Virus record (IMG/VR): IMGVR_UViG_3300009545_000003
Span: 1-64,000 of that record
DNA length: 64,000 nucleotides
DNA from: a virus
Strand: one strand, 5' to 3'
Every line of letters begins with the position of its first letter. The first letter of the stretch is position 1. The notes below the pieces were generated by a model, which was not told where the DNA came from, did not search any database, and was given only the letters and a program-made list of their open reading frames with translations. The position numbers were made by a program, and so were the translations under genes. This document shows, piece by piece, positions 1-58,384 of the stretch.

Positions 1-131
1 GGTCCTTCGAGATCCTGGACAGCGTTGTAAAGAAGATTTTGTCCTCTAAGGCATAACTGTGTAGGGTTCTCTCTACACTGCTCGCAGATGTCAAGGTGCG
101 CGTGGAATTTTGATGCGCCTTGAAGGGTCAT
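1..131 (-). CDS. Partial small protein with CxxC motif
   Basis: The reading frame starts at the ATG at 131-129 and is open to the left edge, so only the first 43 residues are visible. The start overlaps the stop of the DnaJ-like gene as ATGA, the coupling used throughout this arm, and AAAGG lies just upstream. The visible part contains H-x-D-I-C-E-Q-C, then L-C-x-R-G. This resembles short zinc-binding phage proteins with a C-x2-C plus a later LC. The function is unknown and the C-terminus lies outside the window. Confidence 0.6.
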   Translation of the reverse strand, partial: MTLQGASKFHAHLDICEQCRENPTQLCLRGQNLLYNAVQDLEG

Positions 132-688
132 AGGCCTTTCCTTTCTCTTTGTGTCTTAGGGCCCGATAACCAACCTTTAGGAATTACAGGATTATGTATC
201 TCAATCTCACCTGTACCGAAACACTTATAGCATGTTTCGTAGAAATGGCCCAATTGAACATTTACATAGCCACGTATGCAGCTTGGACAAAATTGTAAGA
301 ATCCTATTCGTCCTGTTCCATGGCATCTAGAACAAAACTCTGTTCTTGTTCTAGGACGGGTATTGTAACCCCTATGTTGACAAACAGAGCAATCTTTGCC
401 ATTCTTTAGAGGACCTAATCCTAGCCCTAACTCAACTAGAGGAACTCCATCTACTGTCTTATCTAGCCGAATACTCTTAAAAGCATCTACAGTAAAAATA
501 GCGCTATCTTTTTGTAGACGTTGGTACACTTGATCCATTTTCTTGAATTTTTCTTCAGCGTATGGATCATTAGGATTTAGATCAGGGTGCAACTTTCTCG
601 CTGCTACGCGATACGCAGACTTGAGCTGATCTAGTGTTATAGGAGCAGTTAAACCAAATGTATCAAAAAGATCAGTTGCTAGAGTCAT
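128..688 (-). CDS. DnaJ-like protein: J domain plus zinc-binding repeats
   Basis: The protein has 186 residues. Residues about 10-60 form a J-domain-like helix pair with the HPD tripeptide (KLHPDLNPND). Residues about 97-165 hold four CxxC repeats, mostly of CxxCxGxG type (CSVC, CSRCHGTG, CPSC, CYKCFGTG), as in the DnaJ zinc domain. The C-terminal substrate-binding domains of full DnaJ (about 370 aa) are missing. J domains recruit and stimulate Hsp70, so this protein may recruit host DnaK for phage replication or assembly, but that role is inference. It overlaps the upstream SLOG-like gene by ATGA (685-688) and the downstream partial gene by ATGA. Confidence 0.85.
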   Translation of the reverse strand: MTLATDLFDTFGLTAPITLDQLKSAYRVAARKLHPDLNPNDPYAEEKFKKMDQVYQRLQKDSAIFTVDAFKSIRLDKTVDGVPLVELGLGLGPLKNGKDCSVCQHRGYNTRPRTRTEFCSRCHGTGRIGFLQFCPSCIRGYVNVQLGHFYETCYKCFGTGEIEIHNPVIPKGWLSGPKTQRERKGL

Positions 689-7327: not shown

Positions 7328-7534
7328 ATGACAAAACGCGAAGCCCAAATCTCTCGTCACATTCTTCTTGGCTGGCCGTATTCGAGAATAGCTAAAGAAT
7401 TTGAGTTAAATCTTCCAACAGTCAAAAAACACGTCAGTAACATCTACAACAAAGTAGGTTGTTCCACACATGTCGAATTTGTTAGTATGGTTCTCAATAG
7501 TGCTGACTTCTTAAACCAAATCTACGGAGTCTGA
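7328..7534 (+). CDS. Stand-alone LuxR/GerE-type HTH regulator
   Basis: The protein has 68 residues and consists almost only of a LuxR-type (GerE) helix-turn-helix: EAQISRHILLGWPYSRIA, then KEFELNLPTVKKHVSNIYNKVG. The K-x-H-V-x-x-I-Y-x-K-V-G recognition-helix signature is clear. There is no sensing or receiver domain, as in Bacillus GerE. It sits divergent from winged-helix gene 2, with two copies of an 18-bp repeat immediately upstream, so autoregulation is likely. The third repeat copy near 3.3 kb suggests it also controls the divergent early region. No Shine-Dalgarno sequence is evident. Confidence 0.85.
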   Translation: MTKREAQISRHILLGWPYSRIAKEFELNLPTVKKHVSNIYNKVGCSTHVEFVSMVLNSADFLNQIYGV

Positions 7535-8744: not shown

Positions 8745-8798
8745 CTAACCTCCGTTGCCTAGGAATCCACGAGAAACCTTAAAAGCAACGGCAAGGAC

Positions 8799-10094
8799 GT
8801 GATTCTTCCTATGCCAGTATTCGCACAGTTCGGGGCAAAAGCTCATAAGTTCGTGTCGCGACACCCGAGTCAGGACAAGAAGTATACGCTTCTTGAGGGG
8901 AGTGTTCGTAGTGGGAAGACCTTTGCAATCGATGCAAAGATTGTACTCCATCTATGCCTCTATAAAGTCAACGGAAAAAGAGTTATTTGTGGAGCAACAA
9001 AACAATCTGTCTACAAGAACATACTCCTTGACTTATTCCAAGTTGTTGGCAAAAAGAACTATGCTTATAACCGAGCTACTGGCGAACTCGAACTCTTCGG
9101 AACTCAATGGTTTGTAATTGGTGCTAAGGATGAAGCTTCTTATAAGCAAATCCTTGGTATGACTATCGCTATCGCGATATGTGATGAGTGGACTGAGTTT
9201 CCACAAAGTTTCACCAAGCAGTTGTTTATGCGTCTTTCTCCTCCAGGATCGAGATTATACGCATCTACCAACCCAGGTACGCCTCAGCATTATCTTTTCA
9301 CCGATGTTATCAACAACGATAACTTTGATAGTGACTTAGAGGTTATTCACTTCACTCTGGATGATAACCCTAATCTGGACCCTGTTTCTAAGAGACAGAT
9401 TATCTCTTCTCAGAAGGGCGTTTACTACCAGAGATATATCCTTGGGCTATGGGTTGTGGCTGAAGGTGCTATCTACAAAGATAGTTGGCATGATAAGTTT
9501 CTTTATGATGACAGTACAAGGCCACCTACGTTGTACGCTTCAGGTGGATTCAGGCAGCACATCATCACCATCGACTATGGCACGCATAACCCTTGCGTCT
9601 TTTTAGAGTATTTCGATGACGGTGAAGTAAGTTGGTTGGATAGAGAGTACTACTGGGATTCTGTTAAGGAAATGAAACAGAAGACTGATAGGGAATATGC
9701 TGACGATCTCGAGAATTTTATTAAGAAGTCACGCCGTGTTGCTCCGTCGCGTCCAATCCTTGTCGTGGACCCCTCAGCAACCTCCTTCAAAGTCGAACTC
9801 ATCCAAAGAGGATTTATCGTTATTGACGCTGACAACGACGTTCTCGACGGAATCCATAGAGTCTCTGAAGTTGAGGCAACCGGAAATCGCAGAGTTCATA
9901 AGGATTGCACCCAGTTCAGACGTGAAAAAGGTCTTTACGCATGGGATGCTAAGGCTGCCGAAGACGGAACAGAAAGACCTCTCAAAGTAAATGACCACGC
10001 TATGGATGCTGATCGGTACGGACTCACGTATCTATATCCTGAGTGGAGAACTCTAAACATTCAGAAAGTAGCAGACATGAGAAAGGCAGCATAA
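8799..10094 (+). CDS. terL: Terminase large subunit
   Basis: The 431-residue packaging motor pumps DNA into the prohead and cuts concatemers. The ATPase domain has Walker A GSVRSGKT (residues 34-41) and Walker B IAICDE (D129, E130), followed by the STNPG coupling motif (156-160). The RNase H-like nuclease domain shows acidic clusters at ITIDYG (D259), LVVDPS (D324) and NDHAMDAD (399-404). The start is GTG 8799 or ATG 8811; AAGGA lies close to the GTG. It is followed 1 nt later by the portal gene, as expected for a packaging operon. Confidence 0.97.
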   Translation: MILPMPVFAQFGAKAHKFVSRHPSQDKKYTLLEGSVRSGKTFAIDAKIVLHLCLYKVNGKRVICGATKQSVYKNILLDLFQVVGKKNYAYNRATGELELFGTQWFVIGAKDEASYKQILGMTIAIAICDEWTEFPQSFTKQLFMRLSPPGSRLYASTNPGTPQHYLFTDVINNDNFDSDLEVIHFTLDDNPNLDPVSKRQIISSQKGVYYQRYILGLWVVAEGAIYKDSWHDKFLYDDSTRPPTLYASGGFRQHIITIDYGTHNPCVFLEYFDDGEVSWLDREYYWDSVKEMKQKTDREYADDLENFIKKSRRVAPSRPILVVDPSATSFKVELIQRGFIVIDADNDVLDGIHRVSEVEATGNRRVHKDCTQFRREKGLYAWDAKAAEDGTERPLKVNDHAMDADRYGLTYLYPEWRTLNIQKVADMRKAA

Positions 10095-24704: not shown

Positions 24705-25130
24705 ATGTCTCTTCAAGTAATTCCTTTGACTATTTCTCCTAATCAGCAGGCTACTGTTCTTTTAACTGTTGATGGAGTATCTTTACAGTTAAACGTAGCT
24801 GTGAAGTATAATCAGATGGCTGGGTACTGGATTTTGAGCATATCTGATGCCAGTGGAAATCTTCTTATAGACTCAGTTCCAATGCTAACAGGAAGTTATC
24901 CAGCTGCTAATATATTAGCTCAACAGGCCTATCTTAAGATAGGAAGCTGGTACATAGTGAATGTGTCTAATCTTTTTCCTAAAACTGGTAGTAACACTGG
25001 ATATGGAGAAGGATTCTATGGTGCTGGTCCTTATGGTGGTGAAGAAGGATTTGGCGGATTAGACTACCCGAATGATACGAATCTAGGAACAGATTTTCAG
25101 CTCTGGGTGGATGACACACCGCTCTTTTAG
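24705..25130 (+). CDS. Baseplate plug-like protein (Pam3 gp18 type)
   Basis: The protein has 141 residues. VDGVSLQLNVAVKYNQMAGYWILSISDASGNLLIDSVPMLTGSYPAANIL is the conserved stretch of the short beta-rich 'baseplate plug' proteins encoded next to the hub. The C-terminal part has GYGEGFYGAGPYGGEEGFGG, a glycine/tyrosine-rich flexible segment. GGAGATAGG precedes the ATG. It is followed by a 124-bp gene-free gap holding a dispersed repeat. Confidence 0.75.
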   Translation: MSLQVIPLTISPNQQATVLLTVDGVSLQLNVAVKYNQMAGYWILSISDASGNLLIDSVPMLTGSYPAANILAQQAYLKIGSWYIVNVSNLFPKTGSNTGYGEGFYGAGPYGGEEGFGGLDYPNDTNLGTDFQLWVDDTPLF

Positions 25131-25136
25131 GTCTAG

Positions 25137-25228
25137 TGTGCAAATACTGGATGATAAATTATACATTACCTGTATGCACAAGTAAACCCTTGGTATCCCT
25201 GGATTTCCCTGGAGTGACCCTGGTATTA
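25137..25228 (+). repeat. Dispersed regulatory repeat, copy A (CCCTGG x4)
   Basis: This 92-bp element is about 80 percent identical to copy B at 51951-52044, including an identical 30-bp run (25194-25223 and 52008-52037). It begins with TGTGCA (25137-25142) facing TGCACA (25175-25180) and continues with four CCCTGG-type boxes spaced 10-11 bp apart (25187, the imperfect CCCTTGG, then 25197, 25207 and 25218), one helical turn each. It fills the only sizeable gap inside the tail operon. Confidence 0.75.
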
Positions 25229-25254: not shown

Positions 25255-26361
25255 ATGTCAACTGCGATAGCATCTTCTAAGATTCCGTTCTTTGGGAGGG
25301 CGTGGTCTTTGACCGTTACTCCCAACACGGGTCCTAGTGCAGGAACTCCTATCGTTATCACGAGTGACACTTTTGAACCTGAGCCACTACGAATGACTTT
25401 CGAGGTAACTCAACTTGCTTTTTCTGCCCTATGGCATGCTGAGATTACTATCTGGAATGCTAACGGTCCTATTTCATCAGGTCCTTCCAAAGGAATAAAT
25501 CTGTATCAAGCAATAATTCAAGAAGGAGATATGGTAACTCTGTCAGCAGGTTACCAGTTTGATTACCCTTATCCTTCTATACCTCCTGTGATATGGAATG
25601 GACCGATATTCTTTACCATCCAAGATAGACCTGACGTTGTTGATCAGAGGCTGATTATTCATTGTCTCTTAAACCGAGCTTTGACTACTCAGAACTTTCT
25701 AAATGCCACATTGCCAGCTAGGTCCACTCAATTTAGCCAAGCTCAGTTCATCGCAGAAAATGCCATTAACAAAATTGGAATCAAACAGTCTCAAATCCAA
25801 TCCGCTTTTTCTGCAGCTAAACCACAACGAGGATCAGGTAACTTACCAAGAGCGAAGACTTATTTTGGAAATCCCCACCACTACCTCAATAGATTAGCGG
25901 AGCAATCTAATTGTCTTTCTTGGTTTGATGCTACCCACTGGAATGTAGATACTATGCAGCAGCCTACAGGACCATTAGTAGGAACCTATGCCCCTGTGAT
26001 TCCTCTGGGTCCTCCACCTCAAACAGCAGGTAAGACGTCTTTTACTCTTATTGGTCAACCTAGACAGACTCAACTTGGTGTTGACTTTAGGATACTCATA
26101 GATCCTTTAGTTCAAGTAGTAGCGCCACTAGTCAAAGTCGGACTGGCCATGCAATATATACGTCAAGCTCCAATTGCTCCTAATCCGAGAGGATCATTTC
26201 CTCCTCTACCTCTAGTAGACCAATACGTCGTTGTTGGAGTCTGTATTAGAGGAGACACTAGAGGTAATGAGTGGTATACGGATATTACTGGAGTAGCACA
26301 GATTCTTACTGCTATTCAACTTCTTGGTCAGAGTGGACAGTCCGACCCGACAGGAAACTAA
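25255..26361 (+). CDS. Baseplate hub protein
   Basis: The protein has 368 residues, is beta-rich and proline-rich, with PEPLRMTFEVTQLAFSALWHAEITIWNANG near the start and a hub-like middle (FFTIQDRPDVVDQRLIIHCLLNRAL). The linear order plug, this protein, spike, wedge, J-like is that of baseplate hubs in DUF3383-type contractile phages. Identification is by order and general pattern rather than a decisive motif. The start lies just after the dispersed repeat. Confidence 0.7.
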   Translation: MSTAIASSKIPFFGRAWSLTVTPNTGPSAGTPIVITSDTFEPEPLRMTFEVTQLAFSALWHAEITIWNANGPISSGPSKGINLYQAIIQEGDMVTLSAGYQFDYPYPSIPPVIWNGPIFFTIQDRPDVVDQRLIIHCLLNRALTTQNFLNATLPARSTQFSQAQFIAENAINKIGIKQSQIQSAFSAAKPQRGSGNLPRAKTYFGNPHHYLNRLAEQSNCLSWFDATHWNVDTMQQPTGPLVGTYAPVIPLGPPPQTAGKTSFTLIGQPRQTQLGVDFRILIDPLVQVVAPLVKVGLAMQYIRQAPIAPNPRGSFPPLPLVDQYVVVGVCIRGDTRGNEWYTDITGVAQILTAIQLLGQSGQSDPTGN

Positions 26362-37546: not shown

Positions 37547-38029
37547 CTACGCATTTTCAAGGGCCACCTTAATCTCCAGAGCAGTCGGCTGATCTGGGTA
37601 GTGAAGAATACCTTCAATATCAGGAGCCGCGAAATCAGGTCCCTTTGGAGTTTTTGTCCCATATTTCTGACCCGGTTCCACAGGGGCCACCGTCTTTGTC
37701 ATGTTAGACAGATGGACTTCTTTAAAGATTCTATCTGCTGGAATACCGTATGATACGTCAGTTCCCACAAGAACATAAACAGAATCAGCTATTCCATCTG
37801 CTATCTCAGAAATGTTTTCTAGACTTGGATCAAAATCTCCAATATCAATTTGTACTGGAAATCCCATGGCCATCAGTGTCTCTCTGACTTCTTCAACTAT
37901 CAAAGAAACACGCAAACGTTTTACTTCAATCGGAATATCTAGTGTCGGTGTTTCGCTTACAAGATGCCCATACTTATTATGGAAATCTTTAAGCATCTGC
38001 TCCTGACTGTTCAATTTTAAGGCGATCAT
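37547..38029 (-). CDS. MazG/PRA-PH-like nucleotide pyrophosphohydrolase
   Basis: The protein has 160 residues. MLKDFHNKYGHLVSETPT, VSLIVEEVRETLMAM (the EExxE metal ligands) and EIADGIADSVYVLVGTDVSYGI (E-x-x-D) are the helix motifs of all-alpha NTP pyrophosphatases. These convert an NTP to NMP and pyrophosphate. T4 uses an enzyme of this superfamily (gp56, dCTPase/dUTPase) to remove dCTP and feed dCMP to its hydroxymethylase. Such a role is attractive here given the gp42-like gene at 42492, but substrate is inference. It is the last gene of the leftward operon and overlaps the nuclease gene by 41 nt. Confidence 0.8.
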   Translation of the reverse strand: MIALKLNSQEQMLKDFHNKYGHLVSETPTLDIPIEVKRLRVSLIVEEVRETLMAMGFPVQIDIGDFDPSLENISEIADGIADSVYVLVGTDVSYGIPADRIFKEVHLSNMTKTVAPVEPGQKYGTKTPKGPDFAAPDIEGILHYPDQPTALEIKVALENA

Positions 38030-38495
38030 ACAGTTCCTTTCGTTTCTCCAGTCTGATTCGGTTAAAGGTTTCTACGCCATGCCCGTCTACGAGATAAGGG
38101 CCCTTGGGTAGCCAGATTAAAGGATTGTCATTACGTTTTCTATTGTATAACGCTAGTAAATCCAGGGGTATCAAGGCGGTTGTGCAAGCAACTGGATGAT
38201 ATATAATATATAAAACGGTTGCACACCGGGCCAGGCGTTTACAAACTTCGTACTGGCGCAGATCATTTACAGCATCCCAGGGCTGGCAAGACGGAACACC
38301 GTCATGAATCTGTATAGCGTCTTTTGCTTCATTAATCTTTATTTCAAAGAACGTCACTACCCCTGAAAATGCATGGTATGAATCAGGTAAACCAAGAGTA
38401 GTGCGGTCACTGCTTTTGATCACAGTGCCGCCTATCTCTTGTTTCACTCTATTAGAGAACGTCGCATTGAAGTAGTTCTCTCTCACTCTAACCAC
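37989..38495 (-). CDS. PD-(D/E)XK family nuclease-like protein
   Basis: The protein has 168 residues and starts GTG 38495. GLPDSYHAFSGVVTFFEIKI gives the G-x-P-D ... F-E-I-K order of PD-(D/E)XK and VRR-NUC nucleases, with an upstream RVKQEIGG helix. Later, AVNDLRQYEVCKRLA fits the conserved Q-x-x-x-C/L helix. Such enzymes resolve Holliday junctions, trim DNA or degrade host DNA. Its overlap with the MazG-like gene suggests coordinated expression. The specificity cannot be read from sequence. Confidence 0.65.
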   Translation of the reverse strand: MVRVRENYFNATFSNRVKQEIGGTVIKSSDRTTLGLPDSYHAFSGVVTFFEIKINEAKDAIQIHDGVPSCQPWDAVNDLRQYEVCKRLARCATVLYIIYHPVACTTALIPLDLLALYNRKRNDNPLIWLPKGPYLVDGHGVETFNRIRLEKRKELYDRLKIEQSGADA

Positions 38496-51349: not shown

Positions 51350-51660
51350 AGTCCAGGATTTCTTTCCATGAAGCTTACAAGGTAATTCTGATAGAATTGA
51401 CCTTTCTTATAATTCTCAAGTTCAATTCCCTTTTCCTTGGCACGGTCATTGTACTTGTAAACATTCCCCTTTAAGAATCCGATAAATTCTTGAGGAGTCA
51501 TTCGATTCTCAAGTACTTTAATCGTTTCATAGACAGTGTCTCCACCATAATGAGATGGATGATTAATGGTTTCACTGGATTGTAACGGAACTTCCGTCAT
51601 TACTTTCGTCAGTTTCTCCAATACTGGCGTCTTCTTTCTTGAGCCCTTGGATTCTTTCAT
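51346..51660 (-). CDS. DUF3310-family protein (T7 gp1.7-like)
   Basis: The protein has 104 residues. INHPSHYGGDTVYETIKVLE, then EFIGFLKGNVYKYNDRAKEKG, is the DUF3310 signature found in T7 gp1.7, which has nucleotide kinase activity on dTMP and dGMP. Its place among nucleotide genes supports a nucleotide role. It shares 89 nt with the start-side gene at 51572-51925. Confidence 0.8.
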   Translation of the reverse strand: MKESKGSRKKTPVLEKLTKVMTEVPLQSSETINHPSHYGGDTVYETIKVLENRMTPQEFIGFLKGNVYKYNDRAKEKGIELENYKKGQFYQNYLVSFMERNPGL

Positions 51661-51925
51661 TCTCTTTTTCCTCTTTTCTTTTCGTTAAAAACGCATGCAC
51701 TTCATCAAGAAGCTGTGTGTCTCCTAAGGTAGTGTTAAACACAAACTCACACTTAGGTAGGAGTTCTGGGGGTAGAGCGGGTGTGAATTGGAATATCGAT
51801 CTATCCCCACTAAACAGCCACTCTAACGCTCGTGATGCATGATCTCTAGCACTGAGACCTTGCTTTTTTGCTTCTTCTCTTAGATTGTCAAGAGACTTAC
51901 GGGTTAAGTCAATGTGGATCGCCAC
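51572..51925 (-). CDS. Unknown protein with charged helices
   Basis: The start is GTG 51925 with AAGGAGAAAA before it. The protein has 117 residues: an N-terminal strand-helix (IHIDLTRKSLDNLREEAKKQGLSARDHASRALEWLF) recalling ribbon-helix-helix or helix-hairpin proteins, and a charged helical C-terminus. The dispersed repeat copy B lies just upstream (51951-52044), so it may regulate this gene. Confidence 0.65.
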   Translation of the reverse strand: MAIHIDLTRKSLDNLREEAKKQGLSARDHASRALEWLFSGDRSIFQFTPALPPELLPKCEFVFNTTLGDTQLLDEVHAFLTKRKEEKENERIQGLKKEDASIGETDESNDGSSVTIQ

Positions 51926-51950
51926 TTTTCTCCTTTTTCCTTGGTTAATT

Positions 51951-52044
51951 TGTGCAAATCCTGGATGATAAAATATACACCAGCATATTGCACAAATGAC
52001 CCTGGGTTATCCCTGGATTTCCCTGGAGTGACCCTGGGTGATTA
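51951..52044 (+). repeat. Dispersed regulatory repeat, copy B (CCCTGG x4)
   Basis: This is the second copy of the element at 25137-25228. ATTTGTGCAA (51948-51957) and TTGCACAAAT (51988-51997) form a perfect 10-bp inverted repeat. CCCTGG boxes begin at 52000, 52011, 52021 and 52032, spaced 10-11 bp. It overlaps the last codons of the gene at 52007-52222 and faces the start of the gene at 51925, here on the opposite side of transcription to copy A. Confidence 0.75.
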
Positions 52045-52222
52045 CCTTAGGCATATTTAATGCCCAGGCAATTTGACTCATAATCTCTTCAGAGAGCAAT
52101 TTCTCATCCACTATAAAACTCTTTCCACCTGCCATAACAGCATCAAGAATCTTACAGTAGTTTTCTGCTGAAAGTTTAGCCCGAAGGATATTCATTTGAG
52201 TTTTTGTGAAGGTTGCAGGCAT
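52007..52222 (-). CDS. Unknown protein (71 aa)
   Basis: The protein has 71 residues and is helical (FTKTQMNILRAKLSAENYCKILDAVM, KLLSEEIMSQIAWALNMPKV). Its last 13 residues (ITQGHSREIQG and neighbours) are encoded within the CCCTGG repeat, so the C-terminus may be there by chance. The start at 52222 overlaps the primase stop by 1 nt. Function unknown. Confidence 0.65.
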   Translation of the reverse strand: MPATFTKTQMNILRAKLSAENYCKILDAVMAGGKSFIVDEKLLSEEIMSQIAWALNMPKVITQGHSREIQG

Positions 52223-58177: not shown

Positions 58178-58384
58178 TTAAGCTGCCATCTCCTCAGGCC
58201 AGATTACTTCGATTGATTCCCCAACAGCACTTGCAATTGCTTTCATCGTTTTAAGAGTGACATTTTTTCCTTGTTTAGCATTCCAGAGCGTCATCCTAGT
58301 CAAACCAGTAGTTTCACAGATTTGATCATCGGAAATTCCTTTCTGCTCCATTAATTCGGCAATTCTATTTGCGTGCACTGACAT
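58178..58384 (-). CDS. XRE-family HTH regulator
   Basis: The protein has 68 residues, a single Cro/C1-type helix-turn-helix: ANRIAELMEQKGISDDQICETTGLTRMTLWNAKQGKNVTLKTMKAIASAVG. Its gene comes first after promoter P3 (58444-58473). It probably controls the leftward early transcript or itself. GGAGAAGAAG lies upstream of the ATG. Confidence 0.88.
   Translation of the reverse strand: MSVHANRIAELMEQKGISDDQICETTGLTRMTLWNAKQGKNVTLKTMKAIASAVGESIEVIWPEEMAA

Follow-up and report, generated by a model that had tools for sequence, protein, structure and literature searches.

Repeated dyads dispersed through phage genomes are already known, and the available portions of published accounts describe several systems close to the element analysed here. 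In Cluster O mycobacteriophages a 17-bp dyad recurs through the genome, as the dyad does here, at intergenic and some coding sites that are mostly not linked to promoters, and is not found in the host genomes checked (PMC4351075). It numbers more than 30 copies and, as far as that account goes, lacks a phased box array, whereas the present element has about 3-6 copies per genome, a 46-bp dyad and boxes on one side. Cluster A stoperators are likewise dispersed, lie mainly off promoters, show an orientation bias and carry a motif that drifts with the phage, but in the available part of their description they are 13-14 bp long with no dyad, are bound by a monomer without cooperativity, occur in 20-30 copies and belong to temperate phages with a known repressor (PMC6550527). 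An asymmetric 13-14 bp site of the stoperator type is not what we find; the element is a 46-bp dyad joined to an array. SPBRE of SP-beta, bound by MrpR, was also an intergenic phage repeat found in silico before its binder and differs, in the excerpted account, as a motif of 15 bp that a prophage carries in its promoter regions (PMC10516654). Centromere arrays bound by ribbon-helix-helix (RHH) proteins, and dispersed sop sites, share direct repeats bound side by side and indicate that scattered centromere sites are possible, but according to the available text they require a motor protein (PMC5016525), and none is recognised among the 103 proteins here. SAS/ESAS of Cluster K combine imperfect inverted repeats with a second motif at gene starts and are shared by different subclusters through conservation; in the available section of their report they differ as 17-bp repeats with a variable spacer, tied to start codons (PMC3203893). 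The dyad here keeps almost always to 46 bp and is joined to a helical array. T4-type PeSL cassettes can be added to these analogues. No published description of this element was found in the literature searched, which mostly left subscription journals outside its coverage, and its architecture appears to be new.

The window, the whole 64,000-nucleotide stretch of DNA analysed, is part of a 69,567-base virus record (G000). A preliminary description had reported an element duplicated 27 kb apart, the two copies about 80 percent identical. Copies A and B are real and align with 84% identity over 87 bases (BLAST), but the term duplication does not hold, as the record carries four copies, with A, B and C in the window and D beyond it (Table 1). 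The 30-bp identical run claimed for A and B lies at 25194-25223 and 52008-52037, and a search for it with up to 3 mismatches returns only these 2 matches (0 in 100 shuffles). Both copies also contain the TGTGCA dyad, which as TGTGCA...TGCACA measures 46 bp with its outer bases, and the four CCCTGG-type boxes at 10-11 bp steps. That description did not include copies C and D, and it also missed that the dyad has a fixed length of 46 bp and that the element is spread through a phage group. CCCTGG by itself shows no enrichment across the window (19 matches versus 17.5 expected); only its phased clustering stands out, not its frequency.

Table 1 Copies of the element and neighbouring genes (window coordinates unless marked)
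Feature	Position	Strand	Details
Copy A, whole element	25136-25223	+	
Copy A, 46-bp dyad	25136..25181	+	GTGTGCAA...TGCACAA
Copy A, four phased boxes	25187..25223	+	CCCTTGG then 3 x CCCTGG; steps 10, 10, 11; starts 25187 (CCCTTGG variant), 25197, 25207, 25218
Copy B, whole element	51950-52037	+	
Copy B, 46-bp dyad	51950..51995	+	TTGTGCAA...TTGCACAA; 16/16 arm positions
Copy B, four CCCTGG boxes	52000..52037	+	steps 11, 10, 11; starts 52000, 52011, 52021, 52032
Copy C, whole element	about 38151-38226	-	fewer boxes; intragenic
Copy C, 47-bp dyad	38180..38226	-	within coding gene 37989-38495
Copy C, weak box region	38151..38177	-	CCTTGATACCCCTGG; about 2 boxes, left of dyad
Copy D, element	record 66323-66412		outside window; dyad part 66367-66412
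Pam3_gp18-like plug gene	24705..25130	+	upstream of copy A
Baseplate hub gene (phrog_196)	25255..26361	+	downstream of copy A
71-aa ORF	52007..52222	-	last residues encoded by copy B boxes, which overlap its 3' end
117-aa ribbon-helix-helix-like protein gene	51572..51925	-	start 25 bp from copy B dyad

Across relatives the element spans about 90 bases, with a 46-bp dyad followed on one side only by about four CCnGG-type boxes. The dyad consensus is TRTGCAA-n30-TTGCAYA, with an arm at each end and an AT-rich centre. Its length is 46 bp in 21 of the 29 dyads that score at least 12/16 arm positions, arm positions 4-7 are almost invariant (55 distinct half sites), and in several relatives the inner half sites are CCTGGATGA-like. 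The boxes, CC-n(1,2)-GG, lie at about +4, +15, +25 and +36 past the dyad, and the CC/GG period peaks at 10.5-10.75 bp (z 18.7; 0/300 dinucleotide shuffles) in 38 non-redundant elements, some of which were found by a profile that itself used boxes. Because of this use of boxes, the test was repeated, with both flanks taken in and no side chosen, on 15 sites picked out solely by the exact dyad; z was 12.6 at a period of 10.5 and 13.4 at 11 (0/200 shuffles). These values strongly support the earlier claim that the boxes lie on one DNA face. The upstream flank of oriented elements does not support a periodic array (z 0.5 at 10.5). The 38-element set, the upstream-flank test and the position counts below exclude matches with E>1e-3, dyad lengths other than 43/45/46/47 and sequences >85% identical. 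Helix-phased direct repeats, as in RHH centromeres of the parC/parS type, are thus a feature of this element, and the dyad is kept without clear boxes at a few sites in G012.

The element is confined to one phage group in every collection searched. An exact dyad pattern finds 12 sites in 8/20 records (reversed control, 0), and a profile built from the found copies matches 27/46 group records, leaving 19/46 without the element. The 57 raw profile hits at E<=0.1 include duplicate contigs and two spurious matches (one at a repeat end in G001 and one in G019); the other G019 match is weak, so that this genome has a weak element only. Applied to 1.25 Mb from 115 other phage loci, the same profile gives a best match of E 0.85, and a scan by primase alignment, which gave mainly distant phages, served as a negative control. 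A fixed-gap pattern matches 8 IMG/VR contigs, each placed in this group through its hub, polymerase or helicase genes or as an already known group contig, and has 0 matches in GTDB bacterial and archaeal genome contigs. As in Cluster O, the same dyad therefore stands at several places of one phage group and in none of the bacterial genome contigs. G001 has four copies, like G000, and is probably a complete circularly permuted genome because it has a 123-base end repeat. An exact 27-mer has no match in IMG/VR because the boxes drift, and BLASTN found no real match in GenBank phages, whether for the element or for its region, and none in plasmids for the element. An initial loose dyad pattern returned 42 viral stretches; most came from a single unrelated coding family or arose by chance, and all but those of the phage group were discarded. 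The unrelated family (L188, L189, L191, L194 and others to L228) fits the loose pattern only fortuitously and can mislead searches of this type. In G013 and G016 the pyrophosphatase gene may hold a fifth copy, though a weak one; the same gene in G000 shows none. The 79-kb G012 record has two pyrophosphatase-like genes, at 8798-9172 and 74634-75008, through duplication or assembly.

The phage is myovirus-like, with Pam3/XM1-type structural genes, and encodes a family A DNA polymerase, an AEP-type primase, SNF2 and UvrD helicases and thymidylate synthase. GC skew tracks the coding strand and yielded no origin, and alignment of the hub protein to genome contigs gave 0 matches and so linked no host. 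At window 128-688 (minus strand) there is a DnaJ-domain protein without a relative in nine compared genomes. The preliminary description correctly placed copy A in the late operon, where it occupies the 124-bp plug/hub gap, and copy B beside a gene of opposite direction, between the 71-aa ORF 52007-52222 and the leftward gene 51572-51925. A reading frame similar to 52007-52222 meets the element in G001, G011 and G005 too. Record 66699-66956 (L004:6699-6956), outside the window, encodes a small protein to which we assigned by eye the one Phd/YefM antitoxin match found in the scanned set. The small gene 37989-38495 (minus strand) is kept in all near-complete relatives, and its VLYAIYYP-like conserved region is overwritten by copy C in G000 and G001.

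Relatives reuse the same junctions, namely plug/hub, downstream of primase, sheath/tube, late/early and the D region, even where identity between hub or sheath proteins is no more than 56-69%, and close relatives carry the element at the same loci as our record. The plug/hub copy is missing in G013, G019, L180 and L183, and because the stop and start codons there almost abut, the comparison indicates that the element comes or goes as one unit. Automatic calling of the 38 elements places 21 between two same-strand genes, reading dyad-to-boxes with transcription. Five are tandem against transcription (three of the copy B class and two box-less), five are called divergent, four convergent and three inside coding sequence. 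On inspection, four of the five 'divergent' elements belong to the copy B class and adjoin opposite ORFs that are spurious, and no real gene contains copy D of G000. Of all sites the copy B class is kept most widely, and it opposes transcription throughout.

Copy C provides a clean case of intragenic selection at the level of sequence, lying over conserved residues with synonymous codons protected. The residues that it encodes in G000 and G001, which carry it, differ in relatives of the gene. Among codons with an unchanged residue between these two genomes, 2/24 differ inside the copy and 47/107 outside (Fisher p 0.0009), which argues for constraint at copy C on the DNA (or RNA) rather than on the protein. 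Together with the distribution, the shared junctions and the box period, this synonymous protection argues that the element is real, selected at the DNA level and restricted to this phage group.

Constraint of this kind could also act on a transcript, with the dyad forming a hairpin for processing, stability or attenuation, a reading that we consider improbable. In the 46-bp dyads, inner arms are complementary at 170/330 positions against a mean of 137 with right arms re-dealt (1/5000), and in-register pairing beats every slide of 1-4 bases; this covariation is compatible with a hairpin or cruciform and equally with a symmetric protein site. Two sites form near-perfect 19-20 bp hairpins, and elements often begin a few bases after a stop codon, as an RNA element might. 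Against this, the two strands have similar folding scores (mean z -2.9 and -2.7), the boxes scarcely fold (about -1), G-U strand bias is absent beyond composition (579/5000), and the opposite strand is transcribed at copy B. Phasing of boxes at 10.5 bp has no obvious RNA reason, and the helical array favours duplex DNA over RNA. In favour of a protein-binding array, inner arms of 46-bp dyads, with duplicate contigs left out, are more similar within a genome than under shuffled labels (20/5000 reach the value), as would be expected with a genome-specific protein or sequence exchange. Concerted evolution of the boxes is mostly unsupported, with orthologous A and B boxes at 0.93 and 0.96 versus 0.83 for A against B within G000; the exceptions that hint at it are a single shared substitution and the inner arms.

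Three further readings concern DNA. Architectural or centromere-like arrays are unlikely but are the main rival; they would nucleate complexes for looping, condensing or positioning phage DNA, either the genome or the products of its replication. Phased direct repeats beside an RHH-like gene resemble RHH-bound centromeres, as far as the available text describes them (PMC5016525), copy B is oriented with the genome and not with transcription, and spacing is wide in G000 (13.0, 13.8, 14.4 and 28.4 kb; P 0.015) and similarly in G001 (P 0.022), two genomes that are not independent. However, even 13-14 kb spacing fails as a general rule in G012, where gaps are near 4 kb, no Pfam family of the motors ParA, ParM or TubZ is recognised among the 103 proteins, and the RHH-like gene is limited to four genomes. 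A small mobile or recombination site, such as a MITE-like cassette or a resolvase or integrase-type site, has little probability; it would explain why the plug/hub junction is occupied in some phages and empty in others, and would account for the two almost identical dyads in L227, but the 103 proteins include no Pfam family of integrase, resolvase or transposase and no recognised recombinase, no target duplication is seen by eye, and the element is syntenic across deep divergence, not scattered anew. That the element is a promoter, or the promoter operator of a downstream gene, is very improbable: the dyad centre is AT-rich and copy B stands directly upstream of 51572-51925, but 4/38 elements occupy convergent junctions with no gene to serve, orientation is inconsistent and no constant -35/-10 pair is seen by eye.

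Several phage proteins come into consideration as putative binders of the element. The 51572-51925 product shows a strand-helix-helix pattern at its N terminus (mean pLDDT 59), and its nearest solved relatives include RHH proteins such as CopG (profile E 0.39); Foldseek places it against RHH with E 2.5, top rank going to an unrelated chain, and a Pfam scan of it finds no RHH family. Because the gene occurs only in G000, G001, G011 and G005 among element-bearing genomes, its product is unlikely to be a general binder of the element; it is a lead only, as a candidate binder in its own subgroup. Of the HTH proteins named for gel shifts in the preliminary description, the GerE-type one at 7328 has relatives in G001, alone among nine compared genomes, and also in L006 and L007, and the HTH protein 58178-58384 is present in all near-complete genomes, including G019 with its weak element only.

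From comparative sequence evidence, the element is probably a selected, DNA-level protein-binding array. In the model that we favour, a phage (less likely host) DNA-binding protein would recognise the dyad through outer TRTGCAA arms and inner CCTGGAT-like half sites and would then extend cooperatively over CCnGG boxes at helical-turn steps on a single DNA face. By analogy with Cluster A stoperators, the complex may slow or block transcription across gene junctions, and at copy B it may in addition control the adjoining gene. Consistent with this, the 21/38 elements oriented with transcription show a bias of the kind reported in the available account of stoperators (PMC6550527). Several observations count against it: the copy B class opposes transcription, 19/46 records lack the element, G019 has a weak one only, and a few G012 dyads have no clear boxes. 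In addition, stoperators are known from temperate phages, whereas here no lysis-lysogeny repressor, integrase or ParA/ParB is recognised among the 103 proteins by Pfam, with PHROG lists also consulted, the first of which gave the best 25 of 41 families. Given a protein-binding array, we rate a stoperator-like role at a little under even odds, and the whole explanation, a dispersed cooperative array on double-stranded DNA acting stoperator-like at gene junctions, is about evenly balanced between right and wrong. Among functions, stoperator-like regulation is our first choice and genome architecture the second.

The element is non-coding and conserved in an uncultured phage group, and its copies and the relatives available are numerous enough for a search for its binder. 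It is doubtful, though conceivable, that the copies are centromere-like nucleoprotein arrays of a lytic phage group, few, widely spaced and kept even when written over a protein-coding gene, which would organise the genome in replication, intracellular segregation or packaging. If the arrays do organise the genome and not transcription, this would be unusual for a lytic phage.
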